64,000 nucleotides of DNA from Bacteroidia bacterium (GTDB lineage Bacteria > Bacteroidota > Ignavibacteria > SZUA-365): NCBI GenBank assembly GCA_027493955.1, contig JAOSJT010000001.1, forward strand, positions 3,087,131-3,151,130, read 5' to 3'. The notes under the pieces were generated by a model, which ran no database searches, was not told where the DNA came from, and worked only from the letters and a program-made list of their open reading frames with translations. The translations under genes were made by a program, and so were the position numbers. How positions within the stretch are numbered: the first letter of the stretch is position 1; every line of letters begins with the position of its first letter. This document shows, in pieces, positions 2,582 to 9,107 of this stretch.

Positions 2582-2775
2582 GTGAAAAGGTGAAAAGGTG
2601 AAAGGGTGAAAAGGTGAAAAGGTGAAAGGGTGAAAAGGTGAAAAGGTGAAAGGGTGAAAGGGTGAAAGGGTGAAAGGGTGAAAGGGTGAAAGGGTGAAAG
2701 GGTGAAAGGGTGAAAGGGTGAAAGGGTGAAAGGGTGAAAGGGTGAAAGGGTGAAAAGGTGAAAGGGTGAAAAGGT
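2582..2775. repeat. 8-bp minisatellite, about 24 copies (GTGAAARG)
   Basis: The unit is GTGAAAAG or GTGAAAGG, repeated without indels for about 194 bp. The plus strand is nearly free of C. In one minus-strand frame it reads as an 8-residue Ser/Pro/Phe/His/Thr/Leu repeat, but that follows from 8 x 3 = 24 nt and is not evidence for a protein. Confidence 0.95.
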
Positions 2776-4326: not shown

Positions 4327-5529
4327 TCAGGGTTTGAGGTGGACACTGCCTTTGCTTCCGGCGACCTTGCCGTTACCGCGTACCGCGTGATGACCGTTGC
4401 TGCCGTTCTTGCGAAGGCCATTGCCGTTCAGCGGAAGGACGTTCACCGGATGCAGCTCGCCATCACCCAATGCGATCAACTCGCGATACCCCAGCCAGTG
4501 CAGGAAGATAAATTTTAAGCCGATGAGGATGCCAATGACAACGAATCCCACCGTCGTGGAACTGATCGCCACCACGATGCCCGCGCCGGCGTACAGCAAA
4601 CTGACGGACATGAGAACAGCCACCGTCATCTTCGTGGAAAAGCCCCGCTTCGCACGCAGCATGTGGTGTATGTGGTGCAGGTCGGCGCTGAAGGGATTCG
4701 TCCCCCGCACTATGCGTCTGAAAAATGCGAGCAGTGTATCTGAAACAGGTAGGCCAAGTACGATGATGGGTACGACCAGCGACGTCAGCGTCGCGGGAGC
4801 ACTGTCCACCAGCAACCATCCGCTCACCGACAGCGTGAAGCCGATGAACATGCTGCCGCCGTCGCCCATGAACACCCGCGCGGGTGGCGCATTGAACAAC
4901 AGGAAACCCAATATCGCGCCGCTGAGAACGAACAGTGCGGCTCCGAGAACCGGATTGCCCCAAAGCATCGCGACAATGCCGAGCGCCGCCGCCGAAATCA
5001 GCGAGGTACCTCCGGCCAGGCCGTCCATGCCGTCAATCATGTTGATGGCGTTCGTCGTCCCCACCATCCACAGCAGCGACACGACCATGGCCACGGAGCT
5101 GAGCAACACACCGGACGCTTCCAGACTGAACACTTCGGGGAAAAGATGCGACTTGATGGCGCCGAGAATCATCAACGACGCGGCGAAAAACTGAAAGAAA
5201 AATTTCTGCGAATAGCTCAGCTCGCGTAAATCGTCAATAACGCCAAGCACCACGATGATCACCGTTGCCTCGGCCAGATACGGGTAAAGCAGAGCGTACG
5301 ATGCGCGCTCACTGAAAAACACCGAAATCCCTTCGATCAGCCAAATCGCGGCCAATGTCAGCGCAAACGCGAGAATAATGCTGTAGCCGCCCGTCACGGG
5401 AACATTGCCTTCATGCACCTTCCGCAGCGTGTCAGGATAATCGAACAGCCCATAGCGTCGCGCCAGCCGTATGCACAACGGCATGAGTACTACGGCGAGA
5501 ATAAGGGCAACGAAGGGATATACCAGCAT
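4327..5529 (-). CDS. Polyprenyl-phosphate N-acetylhexosamine-1-phosphate transferase (WecA/TagO/MraY family)
   Basis: 400 aa polytopic inner-membrane protein with about ten hydrophobic segments. This family moves a HexNAc-1-phosphate from UDP-HexNAc to undecaprenyl phosphate, starting a repeat unit. Family motifs are intact: the HEGNVPVTGGYSI loop, the DD pair in GVIDDLRELSYSQ, NAINMIDGMDGLAGG (the NxxNxxDGxDGL signature), VFMGDGGSMFIGF, and the His-rich loop DLHHIHHMLRAKRG. The C-terminal 40 residues are a basic, Gly/Asn-rich tail. This is one of two initiating transferases here; the other is the monotopic PglC-like enzyme at 26300. The exact sugar cannot be told from sequence. Confidence 0.88.
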   Translation of the reverse strand: MLVYPFVALILAVVLMPLCIRLARRYGLFDYPDTLRKVHEGNVPVTGGYSIILAFALTLAAIWLIEGISVFFSERASYALLYPYLAEATVIIVVLGVIDDLRELSYSQKFFFQFFAASLMILGAIKSHLFPEVFSLEASGVLLSSVAMVVSLLWMVGTTNAINMIDGMDGLAGGTSLISAAALGIVAMLWGNPVLGAALFVLSGAILGFLLFNAPPARVFMGDGGSMFIGFTLSVSGWLLVDSAPATLTSLVVPIIVLGLPVSDTLLAFFRRIVRGTNPFSADLHHIHHMLRAKRGFSTKMTVAVLMSVSLLYAGAGIVVAISSTTVGFVVIGILIGLKFIFLHWLGYRELIALGDGELHPVNVLPLNGNGLRKNGSNGHHAVRGNGKVAGSKGSVHLKP

Positions 5530-5653
5530 GAATTACTATTGCCTTCAGGTCAAGTATTGAAAAATACGAACTCCGGCGGTAAAAAGGAATCGGATTCCGT
5601 TCACCGCAAGGAAACAGACACCGGAACCGGCGGAATGTTACGACTTTCGAATG

Positions 5654-6025
5654 CCTGCCCGCCGAAGCATCACAGGAACACGGCACAACCGTCGGTACAT
5701 GAGAGCGCAGGCGGGCCTGCCCGCCGAAGCATCACAGGATCATGGCACAACCTTCGGTACTTGAAAGCGCAGGCGGGCCTGCCCGCCGAAGCATCACAGG
5801 AACACGGCACAACCGTCTGTACATGAGAGCGCAGGCGGGCCTGCCCGCCGAAGCGTCATAGGACTACGGCACAACCGTCGGTACATGAGAGCACAGGCGG
5901 GCCTGCCCGCCGAAGCATCACAGGACCACGGCACAACCGTCGGTACATGAGAGCGCAGGCGGGCCTGCCCGCCGAAGCGTCACAGGACCACGGCACAACC
6001 GTCGGTACATGAGAGCACAGGCGGG
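5654..6025. repeat. Tandem array of six 62-bp palindrome-ended units
   Basis: Units start at 5654, 5716, 5778, 5840, 5902 and 5964, exactly 62 bp apart with no indels. Each begins cctgcccgccgaagc and ends gcaggcggg, so CCCGCC at the start can pair with GGCGGG at the end. Unit junctions form the palindrome gcgggcctgcccgc. Interior variation is by point substitution (caggaacac/caggatcat/caggaccac). Two solitary relatives, also 62 bp, sit at 63525-63586 and 63906-63967. The structure is REP-like; no coding frame runs across it in a meaningful way. Confidence 0.92.
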
Positions 6026-6100
6026 ACAACTTCCGATCTCTCCAGGTGTCGTCAGCCTCAGTGTGCCCACCAGTTCGCCTCAGGCGCATACACTGGACCA

Positions 6101-6145: not shown

Positions 6146-7209
6146 GAGAACGGGTGGGTTGCGCGTGTCCCCCAACTGACGTTGCGGGTTAGAGGAAGTG
6201 TCGCCCTTCGGGCCAGGAGAACGGGTGAGTTGCGCGAGTCCCCCAACTGACGTTGGGGGTTAGAGGAAGTGTCGTCCTTCGGACCAGGAGAACGGGTAAG
6301 TTGCGCGTGTCCCCAAGCTGACGTTGCGGGTTAGAGGAAGTGTCGTCCTTCGGACTAGGAGAACGGGTGAGTTGCGCGTGTCCCCAAACTGACGTTGCGG
6401 GTCAGAGGAAGTGCCGCCCTTCGGACCAGGAGAACGGGTGGGTTGCGCGAGTCCCCTAACTGACGTTGGGGGTTAGAGGAAGTGTCGTCCTTCGGACTAG
6501 GAGAACGGGTAAGTTGCGCGTGTCCCCAAACTGACGTTGCGGGTTAGAGGAAGTGTCGTCCTTCGGGCCAGGAGAACGGGTGAGTTGCGCGTGTCCCCAA
6601 ACTGACGTTGCGGGTTAGAGGAAGTGCCGCCCTTCGGGCCAGGAGAACGGGTGGGTTGCGCGAGTCCCCAAACTGACGTTGCGGGTTAGAGGAAGTGCCG
6701 CCCTTCGGACCAGGAGAACGGGTAAGTTGCGCGAGTCCCCCAACTGACGTTAGGGGTTAGAGGAAGTGTCGCCCTTCGGACCAGGAGAACGGGTGGGTTG
6801 CGCGTGTCCCCCAACTGACGTTGGGGGTTAGAGGAAGTGTCGTCCTTCGGGCCAGGAGAACGGGTGAGTTGCGCGTGTCCCCCAACTGACGTTGGGGGTT
6901 AGAGGAAGTGTCGTCCTTCGGACTAGGAGAACGGGTGGGTTGCGCGTGTCTCCAAACTGACGTTGCGGGTTAGAGGAAGTGTCGCCCTTCGGACCAGGAG
7001 AACGGGTGGGTTGCGCGTGTCCTCCAACTGACGTTGGGGGTTAGAGGAAGTGCCGCCCTTCAGGCCAGGAGAACGGGTGGGTTGCGCGAGTCCCCAAACT
7101 GACGTTGGGGGTTAGAGGAAGTGTCGTCCTTCGGGCCAGGAGAACGGGTGAGTTGCGCGTGTCCCCAAACTGACGTTGCGGGTCAGAGGAAGTGCCGTCC
7201 TTCGGACTC
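6146..7209. repeat. 15-copy tandem array of a 71-bp unit with two potential hairpins
   Basis: Units begin with gagaacgggt at 6146, 6217, 6288 and so on every 71 bp to 7140; fifteen copies, none with an insertion or deletion, the last ending at about 7209. Copies differ only at a limited set of positions: ggg/gag/aag after gggt, gcgtgt/gcgagt, and the two stems. Stem 1 is CCCCCAAC-tgac-GTTGGGGG, perfect in copies 2, 10 and 11, with one to a few mismatches or a wobble in the others. Stem 2 is GCCC-ttc-GGGC or GTCC-ttc-GGAC, a paired change in several copies. Since 71 is not a multiple of 3 and stops occur in all frames, it is non-coding. There are no spacer-like unique segments, so it is not CRISPR. 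From 5530 to 7250 there is no gene. Confidence 0.95.
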
Positions 7210-7263
7210 TTCACCCTTCACCCTTTACCCTTCACCCTTTACCCTTCTCTCTACTCTTTACTC
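7208..7263. repeat. cttcacccttta minisatellite at the asnB 3' end
   Basis: Variants of cttcaccctttaccc follow directly on the 71-bp array and run into the last codons of asnB. The complementary motif ggtaaagggtgaaggg occurs at 61637-61671. Confidence 0.7.
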
Positions 7264-9107
7264 ATCCGATCCGCCAACACATACGCCCACCTCCTCTCCC
7301 AATTCGCGCGGACAAGCGTGGGTACACGCTTCCATGTGTCGATGCGCTCGTCTTGCTCCAGCCAATGACGGATGGGAACCTGAAAACCGGTTTTCCGTCG
7401 GTCGAGCAATTGCTGTGGTATGGGACGTGACGGACTCATCGCCAGCAGGCGCTTGCGATGCGTCAGCGCCAGGGTGTGCATGAGTGGCGCAAGGCGACGC
7501 AGCAGCTCGATGTCCACCAGCGGAACGCGAATTTCGATGGAATGCGCCATGCCCGCCCAGTCCGAATCGCGTAAAAGCTGATTTTTCATATACAGGCCCG
7601 CCTCCATCGCCGCGATACGTCCGTACGGTGTAACAGGATCCGGAGTCATTGCATCGCCGATCAGACCCATGATGTCCATATCGTGCAACCCGGCTTCCGC
7701 CCGGTCAACACCGAGCAACTCCGGCAGCTCCCAGGGCATGAAGAGTCCGCGACGCAGGTACCACGCACCCGGATAACTGTGTCCGTATTTCAGAGCACCG
7801 GCGACTTTCGGACTGCGCTCCGAATGCCCGGAAAGCAAAGACGCATACACACTCTGAAAGCCCTGCCCAAGCCAGGGGAGGCGCCTCGCAAAGCCAAATT
7901 TCCGTACCCACTCCGGCACATCCACAAAGGTGTTGTAGCCCGCGAAGAGTTCGTCTCCGCCCAGACCCGACAGCGCCACTTTCAAACCGTTCTCTCGTGC
8001 GGCTTTACTGACATAGTAGGTGTTGATGCCGTCAATGCTGGGTTGATCCATGACTGCGAGTATATGGTCGAGATCGCCGGAAAATTCCTGCGCAGTCAGC
8101 ATGCGCGTGCGGTGATCCGTACCGTAGTGACGCGCAACGTCTTCCGCCAGCGGCGCCTCGTCGTCGTGCCGGCCGCGAAATTCCTCGAACGCCAGCGTCA
8201 CCGTGCGCAAATCCTCTATGCCCGCATCACGCACCAATCCGACGAGAGTGCCCGAGTCAATCCCAGCGGAGAGAAACGCCCCCACCGGCACATCCGCGAT
8301 CATATGATGCGCCACCGAATCCCGCAACGCCTCACGAATGGTCTCTTCTTCCAACAGAGGGGCCGGGGGTGAGGTCTTCCCCCCCTCTCCTCTCAGGAGA
8401 GGGGCCGCCTCGGCCAACATCCCCGCAATGGAGCCGTACTCCACAGGTCCTTTGACTCCGGAACCATCCACGCGCAGCCAGTGTCCTGCCGGGAGAGCGC
8501 GAACAGCACGATAGATGCTCCGTGGTTCCGGCACGGAGCCCAGCATCAGAAAGGCGCACAGCGAACCCTCGTCAACGCGCGCATCCACTGCCCCGCCCGC
8601 CAACAGTGCCTTTACCTGCGATGCCATGCGAATGCAGCCGCCGTCGTCCGCGTAATACAGCGGTTTGATGCCGTACGGATCGCGCGCCGCAAAGAGCTGT
8701 TTCCTCTCATGGTCCCACAGCGCGAAGGCGAACATCCCCCGCAACATGGGCAACATGTCCGCGCCATGTCGTGCATAGAGGCCCATGAGCACTTCCGTAT
8801 CCGTCTCCGACCGGAGCGACCATCCGTCCCGCAGCAGCGTCTCCCGCAGCGGACGATAATTGTAAATTTCGCCGTTAAAGGTAATGCTGTACCGCCCGTC
8901 CACCGAGTGCATCGGCTGCGCACCGCGGTCCGACAGGTCAATGATGGACAGCCGCCGATGCCCGAAACCCACGCGGCCGTCGTCGGACACCCATTCGCCG
9001 AAGCCGTCCGGCCCGCGGGCGTGCATGTGGTCGCGCGTGGCGCGGAGTTCCGCGAGGTCCACCGTAAGAGAGCTGTTATAGTGAAAAATCGAATTGAAGC
9101 CGCACAT
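7251..9107 (-). CDS. asnB: Asparagine synthetase-type glutamine amidotransferase
   Basis: 618 aa. The N-terminal class II glutaminase domain (about 1-215) starts with the nucleophile Cys2 (MCGFNSIF) and shows HRRLSIIDLSDRGAQPM, FNGEIYNY and RGMFAFALWD. The ATP-PPi synthetase domain (about 255-600) has ADVPVGAFLSAGIDSGTL, where the PP-loop reads SAGIDS rather than the usual SGGxDS, and SGLGGDELFAGY. In polysaccharide loci such enzymes often amidate uronic acids, which would fit the nearby ugd; plain asparagine synthesis is the alternative. Residues about 235-251, between the two domains, are encoded by an inserted GC-rich palindromic repeat (APLLRGEGGKTSPPAPLL) that keeps the frame. Confidence 0.9.
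   Translation of the reverse strand: MCGFNSIFHYNSSLTVDLAELRATRDHMHARGPDGFGEWVSDDGRVGFGHRRLSIIDLSDRGAQPMHSVDGRYSITFNGEIYNYRPLRETLLRDGWSLRSETDTEVLMGLYARHGADMLPMLRGMFAFALWDHERKQLFAARDPYGIKPLYYADDGGCIRMASQVKALLAGGAVDARVDEGSLCAFLMLGSVPEPRSIYRAVRALPAGHWLRVDGSGVKGPVEYGSIAGMLAEAAPLLRGEGGKTSPPAPLLEEETIREALRDSVAHHMIADVPVGAFLSAGIDSGTLVGLVRDAGIEDLRTVTLAFEEFRGRHDDEAPLAEDVARHYGTDHRTRMLTAQEFSGDLDHILAVMDQPSIDGINTYYVSKAARENGLKVALSGLGGDELFAGYNTFVDVPEWVRKFGFARRLPWLGQGFQSVYASLLSGHSERSPKVAGALKYGHSYPGAWYLRRGLFMPWELPELLGVDRAEAGLHDMDIMGLIGDAMTPDPVTPYGRIAAMEAGLYMKNQLLRDSDWAGMAHSIEIRVPLVDIELLRRLAPLMHTLALTHRKRLLAMSPSRPIPQQLLDRRKTGFQVPIRHWLEQDERIDTWKRVPTLVRANWERRWAYVLADRMSKE
8356..8405. repeat. GC-rich palindromic repeat inserted inside asnB
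   Basis: Plus-strand gaggggccgggggtgagg followed by the palindrome cccctctcctctcaggagagggg. The same family lies in fcl (18832-18881), before wzi (25705-25790), at the DUF559 3' end (26219-26302) and in the aminotransferase (27845-27915). Here it adds about 17 codons in frame in the linker between the glutaminase and synthetase domains. Confidence 0.85.

Follow-up and report, generated by a model that had tools for sequence, protein, structure and literature searches.

The array of 71-bp units analysed here, found in a window of 64,000 nucleotides from a Bacteroidia bacterium, is likely to represent one cluster of a REP-like family that was spread as single-stranded DNA (ssDNA) by a transposase of the TnpA-Y1 subclass 1.2 and that subsequently grew in tandem. 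It consists of 15 head-to-tail units, each carrying two hairpins joined by a linker (Table 1). A preliminary description had reported a constant spacing without indels, and TRF agrees (period 71, 15.0 copies, 92% matches, 0% indels).

Table 1. Features of the window and fully paired stem types of hairpin 1 found among the genomic copies.
Feature	Position	Strand	Basis
334-bp direct repeat, 2.2 copies, 96% identity	1145..1863		TRF
8-bp repeat GTGAAAGG, 24 copies	2582..2775		TRF
Family 4 glycosyltransferase gene, neighbour of the array	4327..5529	-	
Array of six 62-bp copies whose inverted ends are rich in GC, second dispersed family	5653..6025		
Candidate copy upstream of the array, probably truncated: linker and long hairpin 2, GGTGTCGTCAGCCTCAG	6045..6061	+	sequence reading against TGTCGTCAGCCTCAGGCTGA copies elsewhere
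Array, 15 units of 71 bp; order: spacer GAGAACGGGTGRGTTGCGCGWGT, hairpin 1, GTTA, linker GAGGAAGTGTCG, hairpin 2	6146..7207	+	TRF and unit table
Hairpin 1 of unit 2, CCCCCAAC-TGAC-GTTGGGGG, perfect form; equivalent position in every unit	6240..6259	+	ssDNA fold; covariation over 61 genomic copies
Unpaired linker in unit 2, TTAGAGGAAGTGTCG, with a final base able to pair within hairpin 2; the family is most strongly conserved here	6260..6274	+	alignment of 61 copies; copy list
Hairpin 2 of unit 2, GTCC-TTC-GGAC (other units GCCC-TTC-GGGC)	6274..6284	+	fold; covariation
CTTCACC/CTTTACC heptamer tract, immediately after the array	7209..7247	+	TRF; tract also after clusters at other loci
Asparagine synthase gene, neighbour of the array	7251..9107	-	
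tRNA-Leu (gag) call within the asparagine synthase gene, probably false	8335..8422	-	ARAGORN
Hairpin 1 stem type CCCCCAAC/GTTGGGGG			
Hairpin 1 stem type CCCCACAC/GTGTGGGG			
Hairpin 1 stem type CCCCGGGC/GCCCGGGG			
Hairpin 1 stem type CCCCCAGC/GCTGGGGG			
Hairpin 1 stem type CCCCATAC/GTATGGGG			

The element is dispersed. When the genome (5,237,942 bases, one contig) was searched with the array by BLAST, 119 matches in approximately 25 places were obtained, and a covariance-model search revealed at least 163 copies of the core in approximately 26 clusters. Confinement to the present locus, which the preliminary description had named as an outcome that would speak against function, was thus not what we found. 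The core comprises hairpin 1, GTTA or a variant of it, GAGGAAGTGTCG and hairpin 2, and the spacer between units is similar inside one locus and different from locus to locus. Clusters are intergenic and head-to-tail, with runs of up to 20 copies. Hairpin 1 occurs in no fewer than five stem types that pair completely, with the loops TGAC, TCAC, TGAA and similar ones, and hairpin 2 varies between CCC/GGG, TCC/GGA and TCAGCC/GGCTGA. In an alignment of 61 distinct genomic copies, 93% of the cells are paired. Covariation across loci reached 0.352 compared with 0.142 after shuffling (0 of 500 shuffles reached the observed value) and at most 0.088 with the partner slid; kinship among copies raises such scores, and the slid-partner control retains that kinship. 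Hairpin 2 is preceded by GTGTCG, whereas 5' of hairpin 1 no sharp tag was detected but only a loose tendency toward GCGTG.

Two further repeats accompany the family. The heptamer tract behind the array recurs right after hairpin 2 at nine other loci (L010, L014, L015, L018, L019, L027, L028, L030 and L032). The 62-bp family has 37 genomic matches in approximately 25 places, of which six lie within 2 kb of hairpin-array clusters, with 0.6 expected by chance.

Outside this genome, relatives of the element were reached solely by the covariance model. Near-identical copies were absent from 60 relatives searched by BLAST at E 0.001, and the exact pattern was absent from the named genome collection. 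Other genera of the same taxonomic family hold weaker relatives according to the model, namely 90 in genome G003, 17 in G010 and 9 in G001. In the draft genome G010, a homolog of the transposase discussed below was absent at E 1e-10.

REP elements are bound up with Y1 HUH transposases, and for this reason the genome was searched with PF01797. A single match resulted (C1:4215650-4215988), and its gene lies amid copies of the element: on its left lie two copies in minus orientation, on its right ten in plus orientation. On either side, the copies next to the gene consist of linker and hairpin 2 without hairpin 1 and are oriented outward. Among all clusters, opposite orientations, with inverted copies on both sides of a gene, occur solely at this locus, and positions no more than 200 bp from a cluster make up 0.6% of the genome. 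The locus also holds two units of the 71-bp array type (59/71 and 60/71 identical). The protein itself has 160 amino acids, the HUH motif NHVH, a WR motif and the catalytic motif YISNQKEHH. The profile built from its family hits the IS608 transposase, whose structure is solved (E 4.6e-17), and the protein scores 54.1 against the NCBIfam IS200 model (cut-off 55) and 21 against the model for REP-associated tyrosine transposases (cut-off 80). The motif Y---Q--HH is present in all 30 aligned homologs, which were chosen by their similarity to this transposase.

Whether the linkage is general was examined with two sets of homologous loci. Set 1 contains 29 loci from the same taxonomic class, with 38 control windows from the same genomes and mostly the same contigs. 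Within a distance of 800 bp, two or more recurrent hairpins were present in 16/29 loci and in 0/38 controls (Fisher 6e-8), and inverted 12-mers common to both flanks in 14/29 loci versus 1/38 controls. Set 2 contains 61 loci with full flanks from named genomes of Bacteroidota, Planctomycetota, Verrucomicrobiota, Acidobacteriota and others, the far flanks serving as internal control. Here, recurrent hairpins were found in the near flanks of 34 and the far flanks of none of the 61 loci, and inverted 12-mers shared by the flanks in 35/61 versus 1/61, near and far flanks differing in coding density. The sets overlap in part (judged by length and position, L205 corresponds to a G323 contig, L215 to a G036 contig and L165 to a G068 contig) and, as a few genomes are common to both, are not wholly independent. 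These counts against controls demonstrate association, not cause, and a general abundance of repeats near transposases may contribute to them.

Individual genomes illustrate the pattern. Separate genomes possess separate hairpin families, each inverted about a gene of this subclass. In G182, arrays are inverted around the transposase gene, and across the whole genome the flanking element occurs 64 times in exact form, the reversed pattern never; the flanking element of the planctomycete Pan216 has 31 copies, and the reversed pattern again none. Many of the Pan216 copies are arranged as inverted pairs with a distance of 116 bp, like REPINs. Furthermore, the hairpins beside the transposases of Pan216 (L173) and L165 are preceded by CATTAG or AGTAG, near the classical GTAG. 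In G003, which belongs to the same taxonomic family as the present genome, five of the six exact CCCCGAC-N4-GTCGGGG hairpins lie at the transposase gene, and their loops TGAC, TCAC and TCAT resemble those of our element. The genome of Flavobacterium sp. J49 contains just three exact copies of the flanking element, every one beside the transposase gene; wide dispersal is therefore not universal.

Such linkage could also arise if the hairpin family were older or independent, or moved by another enzyme, and the transposase gene had been inserted or trapped among the repeats. Insertion sequences do target REPs (PMC3733652), and under the criteria used nearly half of the homolog loci in both sets lack recurrent hairpins nearby. 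However, we consider this scenario improbable, given that each genome has its own hairpin family inverted around one and the same gene subclass, that near and far flanks differ so strongly, and that the transposase gene is single-copy here.

The preliminary description had proposed a structured RNA, an ssDNA element or a replication/recombination site. The ssDNA element is the best reading, and a structured RNA is not favoured. Among the 22 clusters with at least two copies, 11 are sense and 11 antisense relative to the upstream gene, five lie between divergent genes, in divergent promoter regions, and 14 between genes of the same direction, genes having been predicted crudely from long ORFs. 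With this even orientation and five of 22 clusters in divergent regions, a transcript-borne element is ill-suited. Thus it seems unlikely that the family acts as a 3' UTR stabiliser, terminator or regulator whose hairpins are maintained by selection acting at the RNA level, even though hairpins with compensatory changes fold as RNA as well and the 14 clusters between genes read the same way are reminiscent of mRNA-stabilising REPs. Runs of up to 20 consecutive copies also speak against it, as does Rfam, in which the family matched nothing at the gathering score nor at E up to 1; together with a tRNA search, this agrees with the earlier statement that neither a tRNA nor a recognised RNA is present. 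Finally, an RNA function would leave the link to the transposase across many genomes unexplained. As for the DNA route, insertion via the lagging-strand template would predict a replication-strand bias; the clusters are distributed 12:1 on one arm and 8:5 on the other, which is suggestive but falls short of significance (p 0.16).

Within the array, all 15 units are distinct, with 17 variable columns and a mean identity of 92.6%. Hairpin 2 is present in every unit, as GCCC/GGGC, GTCC/GGAC or intermediates, so that the two alternating forms noted earlier are both there. Hairpin 1 has mismatches at two adjacent pairs in 8–9 of the 15 units, and its 8-bp stem is perfect in copies 2, 10 and 11, as had been noted. 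Either strand of a perfect-stem unit, when folded as ssDNA, forms hairpin 1 with 8 bp and hairpin 2 with 4 bp (z approximately -2). The paired change from C-G to T-A, to which the preliminary description had attached weight, is present but did not hold up as evidence: the pair is T-A in five units, C-G in three, T-G in three and unpaired in four, and covariation inside the array is at shuffle level (0.080 versus 0.079; 311 of 500 shuffles equal or exceed it). Covariation thus fails within the array and appears across loci. In contrast, the suggestion that variable columns occur in many combinations, as after recombination, was borne out by the four-gamete test, which 28 of 36 column pairs fail; units of the array have therefore probably exchanged sequence with one another. 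An integron attC array, prompted by GTTAG, was set aside since cassette genes are absent between the units. Indel-free units, high identity, mosaic columns and the lack of internal covariation would all suit a plain tandem satellite born of slippage or unequal exchange with incidental hairpins, yet this is very hard to maintain against a two-hairpin family dispersed to approximately 26 clusters with compensatory stem changes; the preliminary description, too, had held the array to be more than a plain satellite. Tandem exchange explains the growth of the array, not the element.

In elements of the IS200/IS605 group, hairpins are recognised as ssDNA with a guide sequence at their foot. The transposase described here is related to those of this group, which includes IS608 and ISDra2, through the profile match to IS608. 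However, it is encoded by one gene copy instead of several near-identical ones, and lone arrayed hairpins far outnumber the gene. From IS608, ISDra2 and the TnpA-REP of E. coli (PMC8266576) we infer how spreading by the transposase might proceed. When a strand is exposed as ssDNA, the hairpins would fold; the IS200-like Y1 HUH transposase of subclass 1.2 would bind them, cut near their foot and rejoin the element elsewhere. New sites would begin with one or few copies, and every site would later grow and homogenise in tandem through unequal recombination. Such recombination, acting at each site, would account for both the locus-specific spacers and the mosaic columns of the 71-bp array.

By analogy, the family thus appears to work in the manner of a REPtron (PMC6006769, PMC8266576, PMC3733652). 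It shares with REPs the short intergenic palindromes in high copy number, the single Y1 HUH transposase gene between inverted copies and an unpaired conserved motif at the hairpin foot. However, the GTAG/GTGG tag at the 5' hairpin foot is absent, two dissimilar hairpins with a fixed linker form head-to-tail arrays instead of inverted pairs (BIME/REPIN), and the transposase is of class 1 (Y---Q--HH) and not of class 2 (Y---NP). Since both the tag and the inverted-pair arrangement are lacking, the family falls outside the GTAG REP superfamily. A second superfamily, tagged with CGTC, is known from Bacteroidetes, Chlorobi and other phyla (Di Nocera et al., 2013, PMC3733652). CGTC does precede the palindrome in a minority of our copies, but these amount to approximately 12 of the 61 aligned, most having CGCC, and membership was rejected on this tag frequency. 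In addition, the stem starts differ, and the CGTC-tagged REPs occur mostly as head-to-head pairs without a linked transposase (PMC3733652), unlike the present family.

The subclass 1.2 was described as carrying the signature Y---Q--HH, as low-copy and as generally devoid of IS200 hairpins and of REPs (Quentin et al., 2018, PMC6006769). The enzyme of this genome resembles it in its signature, its single copy, its proximity to IS200 transposases and a distribution of the Bacteroidota type. It differs in having NHVH and WR in place of the DH[IV]H and WQ that characterise the subclass and most of the aligned homologs, and dispersed hairpins flank its gene, whereas no REP was assigned to the subclass (PMC6006769). 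However, the automated REP search in that study required GT[AG]G (PMC6006769), and consequently hairpins with other tags were invisible to it. Searches of open-access literature yielded no record of REPs linked to subclass 1.2.

Taken together, we lean slightly toward the view that subclass 1.2 is a previously unrecognised class of domesticated transposases that sustain REP-like hairpin families of their own; in the present genome this would be a tandem element of two hairpins lacking the GTAG tag. The subclass, to which neither IS ends nor REPs were assigned in 2018, gains a specific candidate substrate in one genome after another, backed by a strong statistical association, and the role of its enzymes would become directly testable by simple ssDNA assays. 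Close homologs occur in Planctomycetota, Verrucomicrobiota and Acidobacteriota and are widespread in Bacteroidota. If our view is true, REP biology would reach past GTAG-tagged repeats and class 2 enzymes, and the hairpin repeats of many Bacteroidota genomes would be accounted for.
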